This document shows positions 460 through 32,936 of a stretch of DNA of 43,611 nucleotides, in pieces (within the stretch, counting starts at the first letter, position 1; each line of letters opens with the position of its first letter). This stretch comes from a virus, in IMG/VR virus record IMGVR_UViG_3300003886_000236, positions 1 to 43,611 of that record; one strand, given 5' to 3'. The notes under the pieces were generated by a model. It was not told where the DNA came from and searched no databases. It saw only the letters and a program-made list of their open reading frames with translations. The position numbers and the translations under genes were made by a program.

Positions 460-1266
460 GTGAAATCCTTTAATGTCATAACGGGTGTGCCGCGCAGTGG
501 ATCTACTTTGCTGTGCAACATACTCAATCAGAATCCAGAGTTCTATGCCAGTTCTACGAGTCCGATCACTGAACTACTCAGTACATTCGTGCATCAGTGC
601 AGCAATACCCCTGAGATTCAAGCGTGGCTTGCCGACGACTCAGTTGGGGTCACTGAACGTCTGACGAATATGACAAGGAAGATGTTGGAGGAGTGGTATT
701 CTCACAAGTCGGGTGTCGTCTTCGATAAGTCTCGCGGCTGGACGTTCCATGCGTTGCTACTGCATCAGATCTTCCCAGAGGCTAAGATTATTGTCTGCGT
801 CCGCGAATTGAGAAACGTATTTGCGTCTGTCGAGAAACACCATCGGGCTAACCCGATATTCGATTCTGCCAGTAGTCCCTTAGAGAAGACGGTCTTAGAT
901 CGCGCGGATAAGATGATGTCCCCGGAGGGTCGGATCGGGCAGAGCGTCGTCGGTCTCCAAGATCTGATGAGCCGGGGGTCTGATCGAGTCTACATTCTTC
1001 AGCATGAGGCTTTCACGATAGATCCAGTTACGAAGATGCGAGAATTGTATGACTTTATAAAGGAGCCGTATTTCGAGCATGACTTAACGAGTATTGACAA
1101 CGTCTCTACTGATCTTGACGCTCTGTATCTGAATAAGTTTCCCCATGAGGGAAGTGGATCAGTCAGGAAGACAGATAGAAATGAATGGAAGAATTATTTG
1201 ACCCCAGAGTTGGGGGATTTGATCTACCGACGATATCCGCAGTATAACACTGCGTTTGGCTATTGA
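460..1266 (+). CDS. Sulfotransferase family protein
   Basis: A 268-residue protein beginning at GTG right after the fibre stop. Residues 8-18 read TGVPRSGSTLL, the 5'-phosphosulfate-binding loop of PAPS-dependent sulfotransferases (Sulfotransfer_3 type). Around residue 110 the block VRELRNVFASVEKHH matches the family's second nucleotide-binding segment (R-x-P/L-R-x-V-x-A-S). Such enzymes transfer sulfate from PAPS to a hydroxyl or amine of a carbohydrate, lipid or protein. The acceptor cannot be read from sequence. Because it sits between a tail fibre and virion genes, it may modify host surface glycans or a virion component. Family assignment is strong; substrate is unknown. Confidence 0.85.
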   Translation: MKSFNVITGVPRSGSTLLCNILNQNPEFYASSTSPITELLSTFVHQCSNTPEIQAWLADDSVGVTERLTNMTRKMLEEWYSHKSGVVFDKSRGWTFHALLLHQIFPEAKIIVCVRELRNVFASVEKHHRANPIFDSASSPLEKTVLDRADKMMSPEGRIGQSVVGLQDLMSRGSDRVYILQHEAFTIDPVTKMRELYDFIKEPYFEHDLTSIDNVSTDLDALYLNKFPHEGSGSVRKTDRNEWKNYLTPELGDLIYRRYPQYNTAFGY

Positions 1267-21658: not shown

Positions 21659-21969
21659 CTCCAGCGACTTCCTTCTTCCCGCTCAATTCCCGCCGCTCGA
21701 AGTTTTTGCCTTGCTTTTTGTCCGGAGACCCCGGCTTCTTTGGCAAGACTCACTAAAGTAACGCCGCCATCCGCCTGGGTCTTCTTCGACTTTTTTGCAG
21801 CTGCTTTTTTCTTGCCGCCTTTCTTCGCGACTTTCTTTGAGGATTTCTTATTGCTCTTCTTACCTTTCTTCTTCGTAGCCACTTTCTTCTCCTTAGTGGG
21901 TTGATGTTCGGGAAGAGGTTTCTTCAGTTCTTCCCGTAGGGCGTCGGTTGCTTTCTTAATTTTCTTCAT
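21604..21969 (-). CDS. Histone-H1-like Lys-rich protein with C-terminal helical DNA-binding domain
   Basis: 121 residues, in an ATGA overlap with the helicase stop. Residues ~25-65 are almost wholly Lys/Ala/Gly (KKVAKKGGKKKAAAKKSKK), like the tails of bacterial H1-like nucleoid proteins. Residues ~70-121 (LVSLAKEAGVSGQKARQKLR, AAGI, RWSWKD) form the small domain also found in two other proteins of this window. A DNA-coating or nucleoid role is inferred from composition. Confidence 0.65.
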   Translation of the reverse strand: MKKIKKATDALREELKKPLPEHQPTKEKKVATKKKGKKSNKKSSKKVAKKGGKKKAAAKKSKKTQADGGVTLVSLAKEAGVSGQKARQKLRAAGIEREEGSRWSWKDGSKVLKAARKALGL

Positions 21970-23324
21970 GCGGTTTTCCTATGTCGGTATTTGTCGCAGA
22001 CCAGTGTTGCTAGATCTCTTTTCTTAACTACTGATTCAAACATCTCGAGGTCGATAGTATCTTCAGCCATGAGAAACCAGTAGTTGACTTGATCGGTGTC
22101 GAATGATTGTATCCTGAATCTCGATTGCTCGAAATCAATCATGCTATGATTCCAAGAATAGTAAATATAAGTGTTTGCGGCGGATAAGTCGATGGCTTCT
22201 CCGGACTGAACTTGAAGTATAATCACCTCAGTGTCGAATTCCCCGTTATAGTCTACTCTACCAGAAATCCTCTTCCAAGAACGTCCCATGCTATCGAGTA
22301 GGGCGCCTATACGATCAATTTCGTGCTTGAAGCGGCAGCAGACTACTAATCGTCGGTCCATCACCCGCGGCAGTCTCAGCACTTGCCTGAGCTGATGAAG
22401 TTTTTCCTCCCCTAAGGTATGGACTGTGCGCTTCTTGCGTCTCTGACCGGGTATTCGCTCGTCCTGAATGACATATCCCCCGGCGATCTGCTGGAGTTTC
22501 ATTGTCAGGGTTAAAACGAGAGGAGTGTTGATCGGGCTCCCGTTGACTTCTGTTTCCAGATGCTCCTGTAGTTCTTCGTAGACTCTTCGAGTAGAAGGCT
22601 TTAGTTTGAAGAAAACTTTCTTCCATCGAATTCGAGCAGAAGGAAGTCCCTCAGACCTTCGAGCTTCAGCAAGAGTGATCCGGTGGCAATAGGTGTGGAA
22701 GATGTCGTTGAACTCGTCTTCATTTTTTGGACCTAAGATCTTCTTGTACTCAGTTTTTGTTTTGTAATTCTTCTTAGTTTCTATCTCTAAGTATTGATCT
22801 TCGAAATCTTCCCATCGATCTCCAAAGACACCAGGCTGAATAAAGTCAAAGATAGACCAAGCATCTTGTATCCCCTGAGCCACTGGAGTACCTGTTAGTA
22901 GTAACTTATAGGTGGCTCTTCTCCCCAGGGTTCGGATAAATCCAGATTGTCTGCTACCTCGCTTTTTTATCCGATGTCCTTCATCACAAATTACGAGGAT
23001 AGACCTTCCTTGTTTCTTCCACTTATCTGCCATCTTATAATATCGCCTGCGGTCTTTAGCTTGATGAGCACTTGCTTCATAGTGAACATATCTAATATAG
23101 CAACCCCAATCGAGTTCTAGGTGTTTTTGGAATTCCTTGGACCAAACCCTTAGCCCCTTCTTAGGACAAACAATCAGAACAATATCAGGTTTCCAGTAAT
23201 CCAATAAGGCTATGGAGATTAGACATTTTCCGCATCTCTGTTCGGCGAATAAAGCAAATCCCTGATAGTTTTTAGCTTTCTCAAAGGCTCTCTGTTGGTA
23301 TCCCCTTAACGTAGTCTTTAACAT
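21966..23324 (-). CDS. SNF2/DEAD-like DNA helicase
   Basis: I start at ATG 23324, which forms an ATGA overlap with the HNH stop; a TTG five codons upstream is less likely. The 452-residue protein has two RecA-like lobes: Q-like motif LRGYQQRA, Walker A region AEQRCGKC (Lys33), motif Ia VCPKKGL, Walker B VICDEGH (114-117), motif III LLLTGTP, and a C-terminal lobe ending DFEQSRFRIQ (motif VI). The Walker A position normally Thr/Ser is Cys34. This family of phage helicases works in replication fork remodelling or recombination. Confidence 0.75.
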   Translation of the reverse strand: MLKTTLRGYQQRAFEKAKNYQGFALFAEQRCGKCLISIALLDYWKPDIVLIVCPKKGLRVWSKEFQKHLELDWGCYIRYVHYEASAHQAKDRRRYYKMADKWKKQGRSILVICDEGHRIKKRGSRQSGFIRTLGRRATYKLLLTGTPVAQGIQDAWSIFDFIQPGVFGDRWEDFEDQYLEIETKKNYKTKTEYKKILGPKNEDEFNDIFHTYCHRITLAEARRSEGLPSARIRWKKVFFKLKPSTRRVYEELQEHLETEVNGSPINTPLVLTLTMKLQQIAGGYVIQDERIPGQRRKKRTVHTLGEEKLHQLRQVLRLPRVMDRRLVVCCRFKHEIDRIGALLDSMGRSWKRISGRVDYNGEFDTEVIILQVQSGEAIDLSAANTYIYYSWNHSMIDFEQSRFRIQSFDTDQVNYWFLMAEDTIDLEMFESVVKKRDLATLVCDKYRHRKTA

Positions 23325-23794
23325 CAGAGATGAATCCAACTGTCAAAATTCAATATCTTCCCCACCAGAGTTTTGCTAACCCTAAATTCTTTTGCCAATT
23401 GTCGATGAGAGATTTTTTCTTTGCGGTATCTCTCTCGAATAATTGTAACATCTCCCTCAGTTAGTTTTGAAGCCGGATTGTCTTCGCCAGTGAGTCGAGC
23501 AGCGCGTCCTTTGTTTTTCATGTCTTCCATGTTATCTTGGTGAGTTCCGATGAAGAGGTGTTGAGAATTGACACACAGTCCATTATCGCAAGTGTGAAGT
23601 ACATCCAAGCCGGTTGGAATCTCCCCATAGTGAATCTCCCAGGAGAGACGATGGGCAAGAATTTTGCGACCGCCAACTTTCAGGTAACCTCGCTGACGCC
23701 TTGAGTCGCGATTCCTGATCGAGCCTATCCATAACCAACAAAAAGGAGTCTTCCGAACTTTACTCCAAAATCTTTCTTGAACGGAAGACTCCAT
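23324..23794 (-). CDS. HNH homing endonuclease (HNH_3 type)
   Basis: 156 residues. RFWSKVRKT..CWLWIG, AHRLSWEIHYGEIP, VLHTCDNGLCVNSQHLFIG and DNMEDMKNKGR are the hallmark blocks of the widespread phage HNH_3 enzymes: His in LHTC, Asn in VNSQHL, and the trailing His. The last ~50 residues (KLTEGDVTIIRERYRK... HRQLAKEFRVSKTLVGKI) form a helix-turn-helix that should contact the homing site. The gene sits between the ssDNA-binding protein and the helicase, coupled to the latter by ATGA, so it looks like an invader that kept operon coupling. Confidence 0.9.
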   Translation of the reverse strand: MESSVQERFWSKVRKTPFCWLWIGSIRNRDSRRQRGYLKVGGRKILAHRLSWEIHYGEIPTGLDVLHTCDNGLCVNSQHLFIGTHQDNMEDMKNKGRAARLTGEDNPASKLTEGDVTIIRERYRKEKISHRQLAKEFRVSKTLVGKILNFDSWIHL

Positions 23795-26389: not shown

Positions 26390-28930
26390 TCAAGTCCATT
26401 TTTCGTTGTCGTATTTTCCCCAAGGGCCAACCTCTAGCTCGGCTTCCATCGGCAAGCCTAGATCGATATTGAAAACTTCGAGAAGCTTGGGGTTACGAAT
26501 GATTGCTAGAATCTGGGGTAAGACTTCTTTTTTGTACTCTGTCTTGACGATTCCCAGAATAGCATCGTGGTGTTCCCCGACGAGTTTGAATTTACTGCGA
26601 TCTACGTCTTCATGTACTTCAACGATGACTGCTGCTTTATAATCACCGATAAAACCTTGGATGGGACTATTGATAGCCTGACGCTCAGCTTCCATTCTAA
26701 CCCATTTGTCTTTAGCTGTGATGCCTGGCAATCGACGAAGTCTGCCGAAAAGATTGCGAACGTAACCGTTCAACTTACATAATTTTTTCATCTTACTATG
26801 CCACTTCTTGAGCCCGCTATACAAACTGAAATAGGACTCTCTTGCTCGTCGAGCTTCTTCAAACGTAGCATACCACCCGTATTTGACTCTCGCTGTTTCC
26901 ATGAATTTGTTTTCAAACATTCCGTAGAGAAATCCGAAGTTGATGGCCTTCGCTTTCTTCCTCCCTTCCTTCCAACCATCCCAGATTTTCTGAGACCGCT
27001 CAGGGCCGGCTTCCAATAGGATTTCTACTGCATCGATTAGGGTGACTTCCCCCCAGTCGCGTTGTTCGGCGAATCCTTCTTTGAGGTGTTCGGCGGTGAT
27101 CCAAACATGTTCGACGTATTCACCAAGACCAGCGGATGTGAGAGTATGAAGAAGAGTTCGCCAATGGACGTCAATATTCTCGGTAAAGCACTTTCTGAGT
27201 TCGAGATCTCCAGAGGCAACCGCTGCAACACGGAGTTCAGCCTGAGAGATGTCTCCTTGGACAAACTCCCAACCAGAGGGAGCCGTAATGAGATTTCTAA
27301 TTTTACCGTCTCGCGGGATTGAGTGTATACGACTTGAATACCGTCCCGTGACAGTACCGTGGAGTTTGTATGTGACATAGAGCTTATCTCCTACCATGAA
27401 TTTCTTGAAGCCATTGATGTAAGTACTGATGAACTTTGCTCGTTCTCGGTATTGAAACAGCAGATCAACGATTTTGTGTTTACCCATCAGGGCCAGGAGC
27501 GCTGTCTCAGAAGTTGAGGGGTTCCCCTTCTTGGTATACTCCGCACACTTGATCCCCAGATCCTTATAGAGAGCTTCCCCGACTTGAGCGGGGGAATTCC
27601 AATTGATCTCCTTCTTCAAGGTTCGGTTGAGTTCTTGTTCAAGCTGGATTTTCTCCTGGAGCAACTCTAGACCGATCTCTTCCATCTCCTCATGGTCGAC
27701 TGTTAGTCCTTCCATCTCGGCATCTTCTATCGCACGAGCAGCAGGCATGACAAGTTTGTGGAATAATCGCCGGAGCGTAAGAGATTTCTTGAGATCTTTC
27801 CGGAAGATCTTCACTAATCTCAAAGTGTACCCCCCATCCTGAGCGCAGTATTTGAAGTTGATCATCGGGGTTTTGGACTTCCCCTGCTTGATCTTCAGAT
27901 CGATGTCGTATTCATCTACGTCTAGGAAATCACGACAGTTACTAGTTAGATCGTTCGCTGTGTTCTCATTCAACGTATGCGATGCGAGCATCCCATCGAA
28001 GTGTAAATGAAAGCTGCAGTCGCACATGACTCGGAGCCATTTGTTGTCAAACTTCCCGTTCCACGCATAAGCTTTCTTCTTAGTTTGTTTTTGGATCCTT
28101 ACTAGGTGCTGAAGTAACAAGGGTAAGGCCCGTCCCCGTCTCCATGGTCCCACTCCGTATTTGATAAAATCTGGATGCATAAATCCGGGAATAACCCAAG
28201 AGCGTTCGGGAAGGGCAATGCATATTGCAGTAATGTAACCTTTCTTGTCATGAGGGAAGAGTCCCGAAGTCTCAAGATCGAAAGCGAACTCTGAGGCTGC
28301 TGTGAATTCAGCAATAAACTTTTGTAAGTTTCCCCGTCTAACGATATTCCACTTAAATTCATTATCTGGAGTCGTTCCTCTAATCTTGTCCGCCAATCGT
28401 CTGATATCATTTTGGAATCCCGGTAGCTTGGAAGGATCTCGCATAGTATAAGCCGGATGAAAAGTCGGCATGCCAATGGGGTCGCGGCGAGTCGTGTCAG
28501 TAAACGGCTTCATATCAATCATCTCTCCGTGGAACTGATTGATCTTGGCTTTCCCTCTGAACATGACTTTTGTCGCCGGTACTCCGACAGTCATTACATA
28601 CTGTGGATCCGCTCGTTCTAATTCTTTCTCAAGATAAGGACGACATGCTTTGATTTCTTCTGCCGTAGGCGTGCGGTTTCCAGGCGGTCTACACTTAACC
28701 ACATTCGTGATGTAGGCACGTTTGTGTATCCCATTCTTCTCCAGCTCTCTTCGTAGAATCTTACCTGACTCTCCTTGGAACGGTTTTCCTGTTCTCTCTT
28801 CTGCTGCACCTGGCGCTTCTCCTATTATAACTAATTCGGCATTCCTTGGTCCATCCCCTGCTACACACACAGTTCCGGTTGTCGTTTCCGACAATCCACA
28901 TCTAGTACATCGGGGATTGAAGCTAGGCAC
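26390..28930 (-). CDS. Uracil-DNA glycosylase fused to family A DNA polymerase
   Basis: 846 residues from GTG 28930. Residues 1-185 are a family 4-like uracil-DNA glycosylase: Cys8/Cys11 and Cys80-x15-Cys96 for an Fe-S cluster, GEAPGAAEERTGKPF for the uracil pocket, and FHPAY for the catalytic loop. Residues ~205-395 are a 3'-5' exonuclease (FDLETSG; NGKFDNKW; YCAQD) with all three motifs intact. Residues ~480-846 are the polymerase: motif A GDISQAELR (~559-567), motif B KKAKAINFGFLYG (Phe at the Pol I 762 position), motif C EHHDAIL, where the usual HDE is HDA. An insert of ~50 residues lies before motif B. It is the replicative polymerase. Confidence 0.88.
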   Translation of the reverse strand: MPSFNPRCTRCGLSETTTGTVCVAGDGPRNAELVIIGEAPGAAEERTGKPFQGESGKILRRELEKNGIHKRAYITNVVKCRPPGNRTPTAEEIKACRPYLEKELERADPQYVMTVGVPATKVMFRGKAKINQFHGEMIDMKPFTDTTRRDPIGMPTFHPAYTMRDPSKLPGFQNDIRRLADKIRGTTPDNEFKWNIVRRGNLQKFIAEFTAASEFAFDLETSGLFPHDKKGYITAICIALPERSWVIPGFMHPDFIKYGVGPWRRGRALPLLLQHLVRIQKQTKKKAYAWNGKFDNKWLRVMCDCSFHLHFDGMLASHTLNENTANDLTSNCRDFLDVDEYDIDLKIKQGKSKTPMINFKYCAQDGGYTLRLVKIFRKDLKKSLTLRRLFHKLVMPAARAIEDAEMEGLTVDHEEMEEIGLELLQEKIQLEQELNRTLKKEINWNSPAQVGEALYKDLGIKCAEYTKKGNPSTSETALLALMGKHKIVDLLFQYRERAKFISTYINGFKKFMVGDKLYVTYKLHGTVTGRYSSRIHSIPRDGKIRNLITAPSGWEFVQGDISQAELRVAAVASGDLELRKCFTENIDVHWRTLLHTLTSAGLGEYVEHVWITAEHLKEGFAEQRDWGEVTLIDAVEILLEAGPERSQKIWDGWKEGRKKAKAINFGFLYGMFENKFMETARVKYGWYATFEEARRARESYFSLYSGLKKWHSKMKKLCKLNGYVRNLFGRLRRLPGITAKDKWVRMEAERQAINSPIQGFIGDYKAAVIVEVHEDVDRSKFKLVGEHHDAILGIVKTEYKKEVLPQILAIIRNPKLLEVFNIDLGLPMEAELEVGPWGKYDNEKWT

Positions 28931-29350
28931 TTAGAACTGACTCACTTCTATCCCGAGATCCTGGAGCATCATCATCGGACTGAAATCTCGATAGGCATTC
29001 CAATATATCACGCGCTGGATTCCGGCATTGATAACCAGCTTGGTACAATCATTACAGAGACTATGAGTGGTATACAACGTAGAATCCTCAGTTGCAATTC
29101 CTTTCCGTGCCGCAAACGCGATAGCATTTGCTTCCGCATGAACCGTTCGAGTACAGATATTAGCCGGTGAACAATTTGTTTCATGGCAATGAATCATCCC
29201 CGCTGGAGCCCCATTGTACCCCATCGAGATGATGCGTCCTTCACTGGCTAGGATAGCTCCGACTTGAAGCCGCAGACAAGTGGATCGCTCAGCGACTAGC
29301 TTGGCGATGTTTCCTAACAACTCGTCTCGACTGAATCTTTTTAGTGCCAC
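28931..29350 (-). CDS. dCMP deaminase
   Basis: 139 residues. HAEANAI (His71, Glu73) and LCNDC (Cys99, Cys102) are the zinc and proton-shuttle residues of the dCMP/ComE deaminase family. GAILASEGRIISMGYNGAP and the Cys-rich ETNCSPANICTRTVH are the flanking family blocks. It converts dCMP to dUMP. Its stop directly abuts the polymerase start (TAAGTG). Next to a possible dCMP-modifying enzyme it could balance thymidine supply against modified cytidine supply. Confidence 0.88.
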   Translation of the reverse strand: MALKRFSRDELLGNIAKLVAERSTCLRLQVGAILASEGRIISMGYNGAPAGMIHCHETNCSPANICTRTVHAEANAIAFAARKGIATEDSTLYTTHSLCNDCTKLVINAGIQRVIYWNAYRDFSPMMMLQDLGIEVSQF

Positions 29351-29597
29351 GTCTTCCTCTCCTTATTGCGCCTCTTTTCATCAGCGCTTTGTAAGCTTTT
29401 TTCAAGGACGCATGTCTTACTTCATGATCCCCTGACAGCATAAATTGCGAGAACTGAATTTTAGTTCCTTTCTTAGAATGCGTTCGACTGACCAGATCGG
29501 GGTACTCATTGCAGACCCATTCCTCGCAGGTCCAGATGTCGCCATCACAAAATACTCGAAAAGACCACGTTACTTCTTTAGCTTTGTAATGCTTCAA
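29289..29597 (-). CDS. Possible small protein overlapping the dCMP deaminase start
   Basis: An open frame of 102 residues beginning only at TTG 29597, with no clear ribosome site, and overlapping the deaminase start by 62 bases. The first ~80 residues look protein-like, with a Cys/Trp patch (FCDGDIWTCEEWVCNEY) and a helical stretch (LKKAYKALMKRG). The last ~25 residues are Arg-rich and may be only a shadow of the deaminase frame. No family recognised. It may be real with an overlapping tail, or fortuitous. Confidence 0.4.
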   Translation of the reverse strand: MKHYKAKEVTWSFRVFCDGDIWTCEEWVCNEYPDLVSRTHSKKGTKIQFSQFMLSGDHEVRHASLKKAYKALMKRGAIRRGRRGTKKIQSRRVVRKHRQASR

Positions 29598-29622
29598 TTT
29601 GTGTGCCGGTCTTGTTCAAGGG

Positions 29623-29766
29623 TCATACTGCTTTTCGGCTGCGTAAGTCAGTGTAATCACGCGCAACACATGTTCCACTGCAGTGCGTGTGTTCCCTATG
29701 AATGCGAGCGCCACAGCGAGCACACCCATAACCAAACAGCTTTCGTAAAACATTCAACACGTTCAT
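29623..29766 (-). CDS. Small zinc-ribbon protein
   Basis: A short frame of 47 residues. ATG 29766 sits only one base after AAGGAG; GTG 29760, two codons in, has the better spacing of seven. The product has GCARCGAR and HCSGTC, two Cys-x2/3-Cys pairs that can bind zinc, preceded by a basic helix (LRKLFGY). The previous gene ends at 29782, so it fits the leftward operon. Function unknown. Confidence 0.5.
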   Translation of the reverse strand: MNVLNVLRKLFGYGCARCGARIHREHTHCSGTCVARDYTDLRSRKAV

Positions 29767-29781
29767 TCTCCTTTATAGCTC

Positions 29782-29991
29782 TTACATTTTATCAACGTTG
29801 CATTCATGCGGAACTTCTGGAGTATGTACCGGCTCTTCAAAGACTAATGTTGCAACGCCATATTGCTTCTCGATAGGGCCAAAATCTTTGAGAGTGTATT
29901 CTTGTCCTCGAAACTTTATCTTGTCGCCAATTTCAATCGGCTTCCCGGTGCTATCAGCATAGGTTTCTGTGCCATCTGGTAACTTAATCAT
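29782..29991 (-). CDS. Hypothetical small beta-rich protein
   Basis: 69 residues from ATG 29991, in an ATGA overlap with the thymidylate-synthase-like gene and with AGAGG upstream. The sequence (GKPIEIGDKIKFRGQEYTLKDF, VATLVFEEP) predicts a small five-strand barrel of the KOW/SH3 kind. Translation coupling to a nucleotide-metabolism gene suggests a helper role. No family recognised. Confidence 0.6.
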   Translation of the reverse strand: MIKLPDGTETYADSTGKPIEIGDKIKFRGQEYTLKDFGPIEKQYGVATLVFEEPVHTPEVPHECNVDKM

Positions 29992-30788
29992 CCTCTTTCC
30001 TCTAGGGCTCGGAAATCGTTTTGAAAAATATGCATCGATACACAATGGAAAATAAAATTCCCCGGCTTCGCATTTTTGAATGCTTCTGACTGATCGCGTA
30101 ATTGATCTAGGATCCACAGCTGTAACCGCAAGGATAGGTAGAGATCATCGCGAAAATGGCGAGTGAAATCGCAAGATCGGATGTAGTAAGTCATATGGAG
30201 ATACCCCATCCGATAGAAAAAGTGATACCCCAATGTACAAGGCACTCGCTCTCCGTGGACTACCCCAGTATCCTCGGGGAACCAGACCGGGAGATATGCC
30301 TGACGAGTCTCAGGATCCTGATGAAGTAGCTCTACAACGTCGCTCAGATCGCCATAGGGGTATCGAATTCCCTGGATGGGAGTGTCCTCTTCAAAGACGT
30401 ATTTTCCGAGATCCGCATGTTTTGGCCAGTAGCGTTCCATGTAACTATGCGAGAAACTCTTTCCTGCCGTACGGAAGTTATCTGCTGAGAGGGCATAAGG
30501 CCAGTTCTTCCACTCCTTTCCCGGATTCAACGGCAGACCTCCTACTCGTTCTTCAAAGTGATCATCAGCCCAGGGAAGATTTGGTTCGATGTCGTCTTGG
30601 TAGTGCCGGTAGTCTTCATGGTTGAGCGACACTGAAAAAGAAGTGTTGAATATCTCTCGCATCTTATGCCCTGGTCGGCGGGATACGTCAGAACTCTGCC
30701 ATCGGTCGTTCTCTACTCCATATGACCGGGTTTGGAGATCAGAGGCTACTTGTTCAATGGCCCGACTGAACCGGCTATAGATCCTCAT
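29988..30788 (-). CDS. Thymidylate-synthase-fold enzyme, possible dCMP (hydroxy)methylase
   Basis: 266 residues. The family core is clear: Arg162-Gln in ETRQAYLPVW, catalytic Cys184 in RVPCTLGYHF, the phosphate-binding RSCD (204-207), and SMHIFQND near the end for substrate contact. Cys184 to Arg204 is 20 residues, as in E. coli ThyA (C146 to R166). At Arg+11, where ThyA has Asn177 to recognise dUMP, this protein has Asp215; in T4 dCMP hydroxymethylase the same position is Asp and selects dCMP. So dCMP methylation or hydroxymethylation is the better guess, with dUMP thymidylation as alternative. The LAGLIDADG stop overlaps its start (ATGA). Confidence 0.7.
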   Translation of the reverse strand: MRIYSRFSRAIEQVASDLQTRSYGVENDRWQSSDVSRRPGHKMREIFNTSFSVSLNHEDYRHYQDDIEPNLPWADDHFEERVGGLPLNPGKEWKNWPYALSADNFRTAGKSFSHSYMERYWPKHADLGKYVFEEDTPIQGIRYPYGDLSDVVELLHQDPETRQAYLPVWFPEDTGVVHGERVPCTLGYHFFYRMGYLHMTYYIRSCDFTRHFRDDLYLSLRLQLWILDQLRDQSEAFKNAKPGNFIFHCVSMHIFQNDFRALEERG

Positions 30789-31201
30789 CGTTTGGTTTCC
30801 TTTATCTGTTCTGAGTATTCTATCCCTTGATTGGGGCTAAGCGAATCTTTTTTCTCTATGAATTTCCTCAGAAGGACGGCTTGAGGTTTTTTCACGATCA
30901 GATAAGGAAGTAACGAATCGAGTACTTCAGCTACTTTCTCAGCTCCGGTCACCATCAAGACTGAGCAAGGTTTATTTCGATAAGCTAATCGACCCCGGAT
31001 TATTTTTTCTCCTCGAGCTCTTCGCGTATGTATTCGACCTTGTCCAAGAGTGAGTTGGATGGCCTTCAACACGGGTAAAGAAGTTTGGTAGATGGAGATA
31101 GAGGGACGTAGGTAAGTTCGCTTTGGCTTGTGACACTGAATGAGACTGATTGTTCCTTCGCCGTCAAGAAATCCAGCAATGTATTCCAAAGAAACTTTCA
31201 T
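30785..31201 (-). CDS. LAGLIDADG homing endonuclease
   Basis: 138 residues. YIAGFLDGEGTISLI at residues 7-21 is a clear single LAGLIDADG motif, followed by basic strands (KRTYLRPSISIYQTS, RGRLAYRNKP) that would contact DNA. A single motif implies a homodimer. It is embedded between two thymidylate-synthase-fold genes with ATGA overlaps at both ends, so it is translated as part of the operon rather than from an intron or intein. Confidence 0.85.
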   Translation of the reverse strand: MKVSLEYIAGFLDGEGTISLIQCHKPKRTYLRPSISIYQTSLPVLKAIQLTLGQGRIHTRRARGEKIIRGRLAYRNKPCSVLMVTGAEKVAEVLDSLLPYLIVKKPQAVLLRKFIEKKDSLSPNQGIEYSEQIKETKR

Positions 31202-31965
31202 CGAACTGGTTTAGTATGGTGTTGACGAGGAAGAGGTTTCCCGATCTCTTTGTGTTTTTGGTGCAAGTATTTTCTAATCTGTTTCATGTCCAGATGTTTC
31301 CATCCCAATTTATGCTGAATATTTTCAGGGCTGTAGGGAAACCATTGATCTTCTTTGTAAGCACTTCTGAGGAAAAATCGAGTTGCTCCACAAAAGAGTT
31401 TGTAATCATGCTCATGAAGGTACTCTAGGAAATCGATCATATTCCAAAATCGGCCAAGAGTTGGAAAGAATACCCCGCTGAGATAAGCATTAGAAAATCG
31501 GAATCTAATCAAATCAGGATTGAGATCAAGCTCCTCAAATACTTCACGGAGGAAAACGAGGTCAGCCCCGAACTTCTGAATAATCTCAGTTGAACGATAC
31601 TGAACTTCAACTATTTCTAAGTCGCGTTTCCAACTGACTATCAAGGTCTGCATACAATGGCCTTGACTTCGACTATCTTTCTCTGCGTGCTTGAGGGACA
31701 TAGCCATTGCTGAAAAAGATTGGCCCGCTCGGTGATCTAAGAGAGTTCTCATCTGTTCCATTGAATTAGGGTTGAAGTAGTTTCTATGCATCTGCCGGAC
31801 CTTATTTCCAGCATATCCTAAGTCTCCATAGTCAAGGACGGGCAATTCCTTGATCTCCCAGGTGATGTCCTGTACAATCTTTCTGACACCCGAGTAGAGG
31901 AACGCAGGTTGTTCGATTACTTCTTTGATCAAACCCTGAGGCCATGCGGGTTCTTCCTTACTCAC
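31198..31965 (-). CDS. Divergent thymidylate-synthase-fold protein (candidate)
   Basis: 255 residues. There is no obvious annotation, but the block QGHCMQTLIVSW ... VQYRSTEIIQKFGAD keeps thymidylate synthase geometry: Cys104 to Arg124 is 20 residues, Arg-Ser follows, and Arg+11 is Asp135. The later FSNAYLSG occupies the place of the substrate-binding HxY segment, with the His missing. The N-terminal ~70 residues and the C-terminal ~80 residues (FLEYLHEHDYKLF... YSPENIQHKLGW) are not recognisable. If the fold is right, it is a paralogue working on a pyrimidine mononucleotide or a regulatory partner of the enzyme at 29988. The chemistry is unknown. Confidence 0.45.
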   Translation of the reverse strand: MSKEEPAWPQGLIKEVIEQPAFLYSGVRKIVQDITWEIKELPVLDYGDLGYAGNKVRQMHRNYFNPNSMEQMRTLLDHRAGQSFSAMAMSLKHAEKDSRSQGHCMQTLIVSWKRDLEIVEVQYRSTEIIQKFGADLVFLREVFEELDLNPDLIRFRFSNAYLSGVFFPTLGRFWNMIDFLEYLHEHDYKLFCGATRFFLRSAYKEDQWFPYSPENIQHKLGWKHLDMKQIRKYLHQKHKEIGKPLPRQHHTKPVR

Positions 31966-32387
31966 TTTGGACCTCCGCCGAATGCACGAAGATGGTTAGG
32001 CCCACACCAGCCCTTGGGCTTAATCAAATCATGTCTCATTCCAGGTCGCTTGGACTGAACTCCAGGCTCTTTCTCGTTATTCGCTCGCATCACTTCATTC
32101 CAATGTCGGTCCCAGCGAAGACCCATCAACACAGCTGACCCCTTACAGACAACGACGATGTCTATCAATGCGTCGATCTGCTCGAGGAAATCTCCCCCCC
32201 TGATTGCTGCTTTTAATTCGTCCAACTCTTCCTGTATGAATTCGGCTCTGGCCATGAGGTATGCTTTATCTCCCACAGAGGACTTGAGTTTCTGATCGCC
32301 CCAGAACTTCTCATGCATCTCGGCAAGGTCGGCTACTTCCGAGTCTCCATAGTACTTCTCAAACCTTTGTCGATTCTTTCCCATCAT
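31962..32387 (-). CDS. MazG-like nucleotide pyrophosphohydrolase
   Basis: 141 residues; ATG 32384 (second codon) has better spacing to AAGGA than ATG 32387. EFIQEELDELKAAI, then DALIDIVVVCKG, then NEVMRANNEK, are the E-x-x-E and D-x-x-D metal-binding helices of all-alpha MazG/phosphoribosyl-ATP pyrophosphohydrolase-like enzymes. The C-terminal extension (GMRHDLIKPKGWCGPN) is common in phage members. The enzyme hydrolyses dNTPs to dNMPs; a dCTP or dUTP substrate would fit the neighbouring dCMP deaminase and synthase-like genes. Confidence 0.75.
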   Translation of the reverse strand: MMGKNRQRFEKYYGDSEVADLAEMHEKFWGDQKLKSSVGDKAYLMARAEFIQEELDELKAAIRGGDFLEQIDALIDIVVVCKGSAVLMGLRWDRHWNEVMRANNEKEPGVQSKRPGMRHDLIKPKGWCGPNHLRAFGGGPK

Positions 32388-32898
32388 ACTGTCCTTTCCG
32401 AATGAATGTTTTGATCGAATCTAAGACTAACTGAGGCGGTCCGGTATAGTCATAGCGTTTGATGTAAGTCCCTTCTTCTTCGAGCTGTCCCATTAAGTCG
32501 TCATAAGCTCGGACTATACGACGGTGGTTCATGACGATTCCTTCCATCTGGGTTTCTTCCCGGACTCCAGCCGCCAGGGCTGCATAGTTAGGCCGGCAAT
32601 AGACAATCATCGAATCCCAGAAGAGCGTGGCCATCTGCCGGACATCAAGGCTATGCATACATTCTCCTCGGAGAATTGGTCCATAGACGAACTCAGAGAT
32701 CAGGGGGTGGCGATCAGTGATGACCGGAATTAGGCGGGGACCATCTTTCATGAAGTTGACTACTGAGGCCAACTGCTCAATGTGGTGGGGAGGCCCATTA
32801 GACCTGAGTAGCAGGATGTACGGATCGAGATTCTTTCTTAGTCGAGTAGACAGAGAGGTCTTTCCGCTTCCATCAGCGCCTTCCAAAATAACGAGCAT
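32359..32898 (-). CDS. Deoxynucleoside-monophosphate kinase (thymidylate-kinase-like)
   Basis: I prefer ATG 32898 (179 residues), which puts MLVILEGADGSGKTSL at the very start and has GAGGAG upstream; ATG 32925 and 32919 are alternatives. GADGSGKT is the Walker A loop, and VITDRHPLISEFVYG carries the DR motif of the thymidylate kinase family. In T4 the equivalent gp1 kinase phosphorylates modified dCMP, and related P-loop kinases accompany phage base-modification clusters. First gene of the leftward unit, overlapping the MazG start by 29 bases. Confidence 0.7.
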   Translation of the reverse strand: MLVILEGADGSGKTSLSTRLRKNLDPYILLLRSNGPPHHIEQLASVVNFMKDGPRLIPVITDRHPLISEFVYGPILRGECMHSLDVRQMATLFWDSMIVYCRPNYAALAAGVREETQMEGIVMNHRRIVRAYDDLMGQLEEEGTYIKRYDYTGPPQLVLDSIKTFIRKGQYDGKESTKV

Positions 32899-32936
32899 AA
32901 ACTTTTTTCTCCTCGACATTTCCATGTTTTCGCAAA

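Follow-up and report, generated by a model that had tools for sequence, protein, structure and literature searches.

A phage gene cassette with two thymidylate synthase-fold proteins and its probable role in cytosine modification

Introduction

Does the group of nucleotide-metabolism genes beside the DNA polymerase of the virus IMGVR_UViG_3300003886_000236 (the window, 43,611 nucleotides) serve to modify cytosine before it enters phage DNA, and if so, is the route that of T4? Cytosine modification decides whether restriction enzymes, CRISPR and type IV enzymes act on a phage. In the T4 hydroxymethyl-dCTP pathway the relevant activities are a dCTPase (gp56), a dCMP hydroxymethylase (gp42), a dNMP kinase (gp1) and a dCMP deaminase. 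The reading favored here, at a probability of roughly 70%, is that the locus is a nucleotide-level cytosine-modification cassette, in which dCMP is altered at C5 by two proteins of the thymidylate synthase (TS) fold, P5 and P3, and then incorporated.

Gene content of the cassette

The original prediction placed a MazG-like pyrophosphohydrolase, a TS-fold enzyme, a kinase-like protein and a dCMP deaminase beside the polymerase; all of these genes were found in their expected places on the minus strand, on which all features described below lie, adjoining the DNA polymerase, and Pfam matches, phrog matches and motifs bear out their identities. The first gene of the conserved cassette (32359..32925) encodes a P-loop deoxynucleoside monophosphate kinase-like protein of the thymidylate-kinase type (phrog_761 ‘thymidylate kinase’, 9e-15; P-loop GADGSGKT) and is followed by that of a MazG/PRA-PH-type nucleotide pyrophosphohydrolase (31962..32387; PF01503, 1e-10; phrog_671, 8e-19; EELDE...EQID motifs), the two being fused in five related loci. 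At the other end are the dCMP deaminase (28931..29350; PF00383, 8e-21; phrog_174, 1.4e-45), which has HAE and CxxC zinc motifs, and a replicative polymerase (26390..28930) that combines a family-4 UDG, a 3′-5′ exonuclease and PolA (PF03167, PF01612 and PF00476). The UDG domain scores above the cut-off of TIGR00758, and 104 of 129 full-length relatives possess it. A small conserved ORF of unknown function (29289..29597) is located in the interval between P5 and the deaminase, and has homologues in the same place in four related loci (L001, L002, L003 and L005). The span also contains two genes that had not been listed in the prediction, encoding P3 and a LAGLIDADG homing endonuclease.

P5, a putative dCMP-selective enzyme

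P5 (29988..30788; PF00303, 2.9e-7; phrog_160, 1.6e-29) belongs to the TS superfamily, as its PF00303 match and the Foldseek comparison of its fold show. Its key residues are Cys184, Thr185, Arg204, Asp207, Asp215 and His253; Arg204 corresponds to R166 of E. coli TS, and Asp215 lies 11 residues further on, the same spacing as in the E. coli enzyme. Cys184 and Asp215 are invariant. As predicted, the dCMP-selecting position (E. coli Asn177) is occupied in P5 by Asp; this residue, Asp215, is present in 88/88 aligned relatives, and motif scoring detected Asp there in all 121 distinct sequences. Position 147 is Thr or Ser in the relatives scored, and Thr in T4 gp42, MilA and AfhB, so that none of these relatives shows the Asn177 and His147 that constitute the canonical ThyA signature. 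P5 also scores below every NCBIfam TS cut-off.

In the selection experiment of the MetaGPA study (PMC8670742), phage contigs with modified cytosine were best told apart from unmodified ones by two TS positions, Asp177 and a residue other than His at 147, and on modified contigs TS co-occurred with PRA-PH and dCMP deaminase. The present cassette shows the same combination (Asp177, a changed residue 147, and PRA-PH plus dCMP deaminase on one contig), which supports the prediction that it modifies cytosine. Many of the modified contigs described there also carry a carbamoyltransferase, unlike this cassette, and the sections of that study on which this comparison draws do not describe a second TS-fold protein, unlike the P3 and P5 pair considered here. 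P5 is proposed to be a TS-superfamily enzyme that selects dCMP and modifies it at C5.

P3, a second protein of the TS fold

By sequence alone, the very divergent P3 (31198..31965) has neither a Pfam TS match nor a PDB sequence match, and it was placed in the TS superfamily because of fold and motif evidence, sequence searches alone having found nothing. The AF2 model (pLDDT 92.7) has T4 dCMP hydroxymethylase (5.8e-5) and AfhB (9.9e-5) as its best PDB folds in Foldseek, and only the TS family appears at E <= 0.001 among the matches listed. Cys104, Arg124 and Asp135 fit the superfamily spacing Cys-x19-Arg-x10-Asp/Asn, a triad found with TS spacing in 78/78 full-length relatives, all of which thereby have an equivalent of Asp177. 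Comparison of the P3 and P5 profiles alone gives a weak match (E 0.06), in the right register. The P3 family corresponds to phrog_34294, matched by 26 of 35 P3 relatives and previously without a function; a TS fold, catalytic residues and a pairing with P5 are shown for it here, giving it a fold and a pathway.

Phages that infect Pseudomonas, Serratia, Yersinia, Brevundimonas and Desulfofustis share the order kinase-MazG-P3-P5-dCMP deaminase-polymerase, which is also found, with a divergent partner in place of P3, in Mycobacterium phage Muddy and Streptomyces phage Zuko; conservation across so many phages excludes chance as the source of the cassette. P3 and P5 co-occur in 18/18 isolate records. 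A scan of viral contigs for P3 returned no matches with a single-sequence query; with an alignment query it did, and every P3 locus so detected also has P5, the one apparent exception being a cassette split across contig ends. Serbin, PMBT14, Polewnik and Muddy, which are in culture and easy to grow, all carry the cassette, so that the predicted modification is open to direct test; no virion nucleoside or restriction reports for these four phages were found in the literature searched.

P3 is inferred to be either a catalytic enzyme or a hetero-subunit partner of P5. TS active sites form at the dimer interface, with Arg residues borrowed across it, and P3 could instead lack enzymatic activity and serve, as a scaffold or regulator, to complete the active site of P5 when the two form a heterodimer, an alternative that carries appreciable weight although it is not the one preferred. 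No conserved counterpart of the His207 kept in P5 was seen in P3, and P3 was never found without P5, whereas some large phages have P5 without detectable P3; in those large phages whose P5 stands without cassette neighbors, a search for P3 elsewhere found none. A catalytic role is nevertheless what would be expected from Cys104, Arg124, Glu127 and Asp135, which are invariant across about 20-40% overall identity, and from the recurrence of the Cys, Arg and Asp in 18/18 actinophage partners. A comparison of tree distances among P3, P5 and their neighbors showed no particular coevolution of P3 with P5; it is distorted by three divergent P5 sequences and is given no weight as support.

Proposed pathway

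In the proposed cytosine-modification pathway, MazG would convert dCTP to dCMP, and P5 would alter dCMP at C5 together with its TS-fold partner P3, the product of the neighboring gene. The kinase would then phosphorylate the modified dCMP to modified dCDP, which the host would convert to the triphosphate, and the adjacent PolA would place the modified nucleotide in phage DNA. The deaminase would drain residual unmodified dCMP to dUMP, towards dTMP, and the altered cytosine would shield the phage genome from host nucleases. The enzymatic steps, the entry of the product into DNA and its protective role are all inferred.

The cassette resembles that of T4 in containing the same four roles near the DNA polymerase, and P5 resembles gp42 in its Asp at the dCMP-selecting position and in the Thr after the catalytic Cys. 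Unlike T4, it has two TS-fold proteins and no glucosyltransferase, with MazG/PRA-PH in place of gp56 and a UDG-bearing PolA where T4 has a family B polymerase. A further difference is found three residues before the catalytic Cys, where T4 gp42 has Asp145, the proposed water activator (PMC6400193), and where Asp is also found in MilA and SPO1 gp29 by sequence comparison; P5 lacks this Asp, Arg being invariant there (Arg181; 88/88 relatives). Two TS-fold proteins where T4 needs one suggest that the P5/P3 chemistry may be other than that of T4. What stands of the T4-style prediction is nucleotide-level modification of cytosine; the T4 chemistry is not supported, in view of the two TS-fold proteins, the Arg at -3 and the place of AfhB among the solved structures closest to P5. 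The expectation of a plain methyl or hydroxymethyl base was too narrow; the group added at C5 may be methyl, hydroxymethyl or hydroxy, 5-hydroxy or a further product being equally possible.

The best fold match to the P5 model in Foldseek is MilA (1.9e-14; PDB 5jnh, 5b6d), a CMP 5-hydroxymethylase that has the CTL motif at the catalytic Cys in common with P5. Unlike P5, MilA is a ribonucleotide enzyme of antibiotic biosynthesis and has Asp rather than Arg at -3. Also among the best is AfhB (4.3e-13), the flavin-dependent dCMP 5-hydroxylase of Mosigvirus (RB69-type), which has the TS fold, Asp177 and Thr147 as does P5, and whose structures (PDB 9iqu, 9iqc) are the closest PDB sequences to the P5 profile (9e-8). 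AfhB, or 5-hodCMP synthase, is a member of the TS superfamily (PMC13390438), and P5 could by analogy make 5-hydroxy-dCMP in a flavin-dependent pathway, with no one-carbon group added. The profile match, the place of AfhB among the best folds for both P5 and P3, and the missing -3 Asp common to hydroxymethylases all favor this. It is nonetheless judged unlikely: MilA fits the P5 fold equally well, AfhB shares only about 17% identity with P5, and known 5-hydroxycytosine phages modify the base with sugars, for which no genes recur in the cassettes. AfhB also differs in being encoded by a single TS-fold gene in a sugar-gene cluster.

The predicted lack of a glucosyltransferase or other downstream modifier held in each search: a PF00535 search of the genome record detected no glycosyltransferase, a Pfam scan of all but some of its small ORFs no glycosyltransferase or other tailoring enzyme, and beside related cassettes there is no recurring glycosyltransferase, carbamoyltransferase or other tailoring gene, only scattered singletons. 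The product in DNA consequently receives no confirmation from tailoring genes. As a tentative extension of the cytosine-modification reading, P3 and P5 might act as a heterodimer, or one after the other at C5 of dCMP, in a TS-fold system of two proteins that makes an undescribed cytosine modification. Such a system would be common to phages infecting Proteobacteria and Actinobacteria, the therapy phage Muddy among them, and would, if true, put the TS fold to work on dCMP in a second manner that takes two proteins; no published account of the pair was found in the literature searched.

Sources of dTMP

An improbable alternative is ordinary pyrimidine metabolism, in which P5 is an unusual dUMP-methylating TS, MazG and the deaminase feed dUMP to it, the kinase makes dTDP and no modified base results. 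Deaminase and dUTPase/MazG genes would indeed supply dUMP to a TS, relatives carry the annotation ‘thymidylate synthase’, and the Serbin authors read the genes in this way. However, all P5 relatives scored have Asp177, a residue that switches TS from dUMP to dCMP (PMC8670742), and this reading leaves unexplained why another TS-fold protein, also bearing that Asp, is encoded. Moreover, ThyX, a separate dTMP-making enzyme, is encoded in 15 of 50 cassette-bearing records, which argues that P5 there is not for dTMP. Most cassette relatives have neither ThyX nor a second PF00303 gene, and a dTMP role for P5 is possible in those.

Some phage dCMP deaminases accept 5-methyl-dCMP and the deaminase gene adjoins P5, but a roundabout route in which P5/P3 make 5-methyl-dCMP for deamination to dTMP, leaving the DNA canonical, is very improbable, as ThyX in those 15 relatives would make another dTMP source redundant and T4 has the same set (dCTPase, dCMP hydroxymethylase, kinase and deaminase) with a product that stays in DNA.

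The homing-endonuclease ORF

The LAGLIDADG homing-endonuclease ORF (30785..31201; PF00961, 6e-5; PF14528, 1.3e-4) is absent from L001 and L002, and no relatives of it were found in related cassette loci. It is an insertion between P3 and P5, outside the pathway, sitting exactly at their junction with a 4-nt overlap with the neighboring gene on each side and with CGATGA present at both of its edges.

Organization of the operon

In the 43,611-base virus record from IMG/VR, structural genes occupy the plus strand of the first half, and the second half holds the replication genes, most of them on the minus strand. The operon of interest runs on the minus strand from 32925 down to a polymerase gene ending at 26390. 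The four genes named in the original prediction are all present as described, namely those for a kinase-like protein (32925-32359), MazG/PRA-PH (32387-31962), the thymidylate synthase (TS)-fold protein P5 (30788-29988) and a dCMP deaminase (29350-28931). Two further minus-strand genes had been overlooked: P3 (31965-31198), which has no Pfam match and matches only phrog_34294, a family of unknown function, and a LAGLIDADG homing-endonuclease ORF (31201-30785). The latter exactly fills the interval between P3 and P5, overlaps each of them by 4 nt, has CGATGA at either edge, and is missing from L001 and L002, the closest related loci. Downstream of the deaminase, the polymerase (26390-28930, minus strand) joins a family-4 uracil-DNA glycosylase and a 3'-5' exonuclease to PolA; fusion of this glycosylase to the replicative PolA is retained in 104 of 129 full-length relatives. 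The same minus-strand block holds an HNH homing-type endonuclease (23324-23794) and an adjoining SNF2-type helicase (21966-23339), and a sulfotransferase-family protein, unusual for a phage of this size, lies amid the structural genes (460-1266, plus strand; PF13469, 1.8e-18).

Two TS-fold proteins

P5 possesses the TS active-site residues Cys184, Arg204 and Asp207, retains His253, and has Asp215 at the position of Escherichia coli Asn177, which bears out the proposed Asp at the dCMP-selecting site. All five residues are invariant in 88 aligned sequences, and motif scoring of 121 distinct sequences found Asp at position 177 in every one and Thr (82) or Ser (39) at position 147. The substitution Asn177Asp makes TS act on dCMP instead of dUMP, and 177 and 147 are the two positions by which phage contigs with modified cytosine are best told apart from unmodified ones (PMC8670742). 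The AF2 model of P5 (pLDDT 89.5) matches the CMP hydroxymethylase MilA (1.9e-14) and the dCMP hydroxylase AfhB (4.3e-13), both above canonical TS.

P3 could not be placed by sequence searches alone. Its AF2 model (pLDDT 92.7) best matches T4 dCMP hydroxymethylase (5.8e-5) and AfhB (9.9e-5); the listed PDB matches are all TS enzymes, with modest TM-scores of ~0.4, and viral predicted structures accord with this placement. Cys104, Arg124 and Asp135 are spaced exactly as in TS (20 and 11 residues apart), and Glu127 occupies the place of TS Asp169; these four residues are invariant though most relatives are only ~20-40% identical to the window protein, and the dCMP-selecting Asp occurs in 78/78 full-length sequences. 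Profile alignment with P5 puts the active-site residues in register, at a weak E-value (0.06). Model matches, residue spacing and profile register together indicate that the operon encodes two TS-fold proteins, each with a dCMP-selecting Asp. The original observation is confirmed and extended, and this pair is the part worth pursuing, since it is found widely, has no annotation and can be tested in phages already in culture. A search of the accessible literature found no published description of it, which does not mean that there is none.

Proposed pathway and chemistry at C5

By established analogy with T4, MazG would convert dCTP to dCMP, P5 with P3 would convert dCMP to C5-modified dCMP, the kinase and afterwards the host would phosphorylate the product, and PolA would incorporate it into DNA, while the deaminase would drain leftover dCMP. 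The original prediction stands as to kind, cytosine modification, but its chemistry is unproven. Simple methylation, one half of the original expectation, and AfhB-like hydroxylation (PMC13390438) are equally compatible with P5. Hydroxymethylation, the other half, is favored by the fold resemblance to MilA but countered at position -3 from the catalytic Cys, where T4 gp42, MilA and SPO1 gp29 have Asp, proposed in gp42 to activate the attacking water (PMC6400193), whereas P5 has Arg (88/88). No recurrent tailoring enzyme turned up within the related cassettes or beside them, which leaves two options: a base without further decoration, or a second step carried out by P3. dTMP synthesis is probably not the role of the cassette. 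Of 50 cassette-bearing records, 15 encode ThyX, the FAD-dependent thymidylate synthase, which lies within the cassette itself in two isolates (L081, MW202455; L095, MW202777); a second PF00303 gene was found in no cassette-bearing record checked.

Distribution and variation

The order kinase-MazG-P3-P5-deaminase-polymerase-exonuclease occurs in relatives from 80 viral contigs and seven isolates. Among the phages are PMBT14, Serbin, a Yersinia phage, Polewnik and a Desulfofustis phage. A separate search begun from P3 yielded 73 loci, all with P5 (in one exception at the opposite end of the same contig), and all 18 isolate records with P3 also have P5; some large phages have P5 without detectable P3. 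P5 relatives are encoded on only seven bacterial or archaeal assembly contigs, in at least two cases within the phage cassette, and P5 is thus a phage family. Mycobacterium phage Muddy and Streptomyces phage Zuko encode a more divergent protein at the P3 position; hhalign aligns proteins of this kind with P3 (probability 98, E 7e-14), and Cys, Arg and Asp are retained in 18/18 of them. The kinase and MazG steps are tied together by gene fusions at five loci (L122:3476-4399, L129:4878-5966, L154:2349-3356, L161:3-833 and L167:4866-5816). In cassettes L106 and L114 another P3-like gene lies downstream of P5, giving three TS-fold genes each. An asparagine-synthase-like amidotransferase, which may hint at further modification, lies directly upstream of or near P5 at three loci where P3 was not found (L058:6641-8014, L078:6665-8014 and L171:4938-6308), and at two other loci without P3 a gene resembling C5 cytosine DNA methylases lies in the P3 position or close by (L011:6884-8005 and L046:6437-7720).
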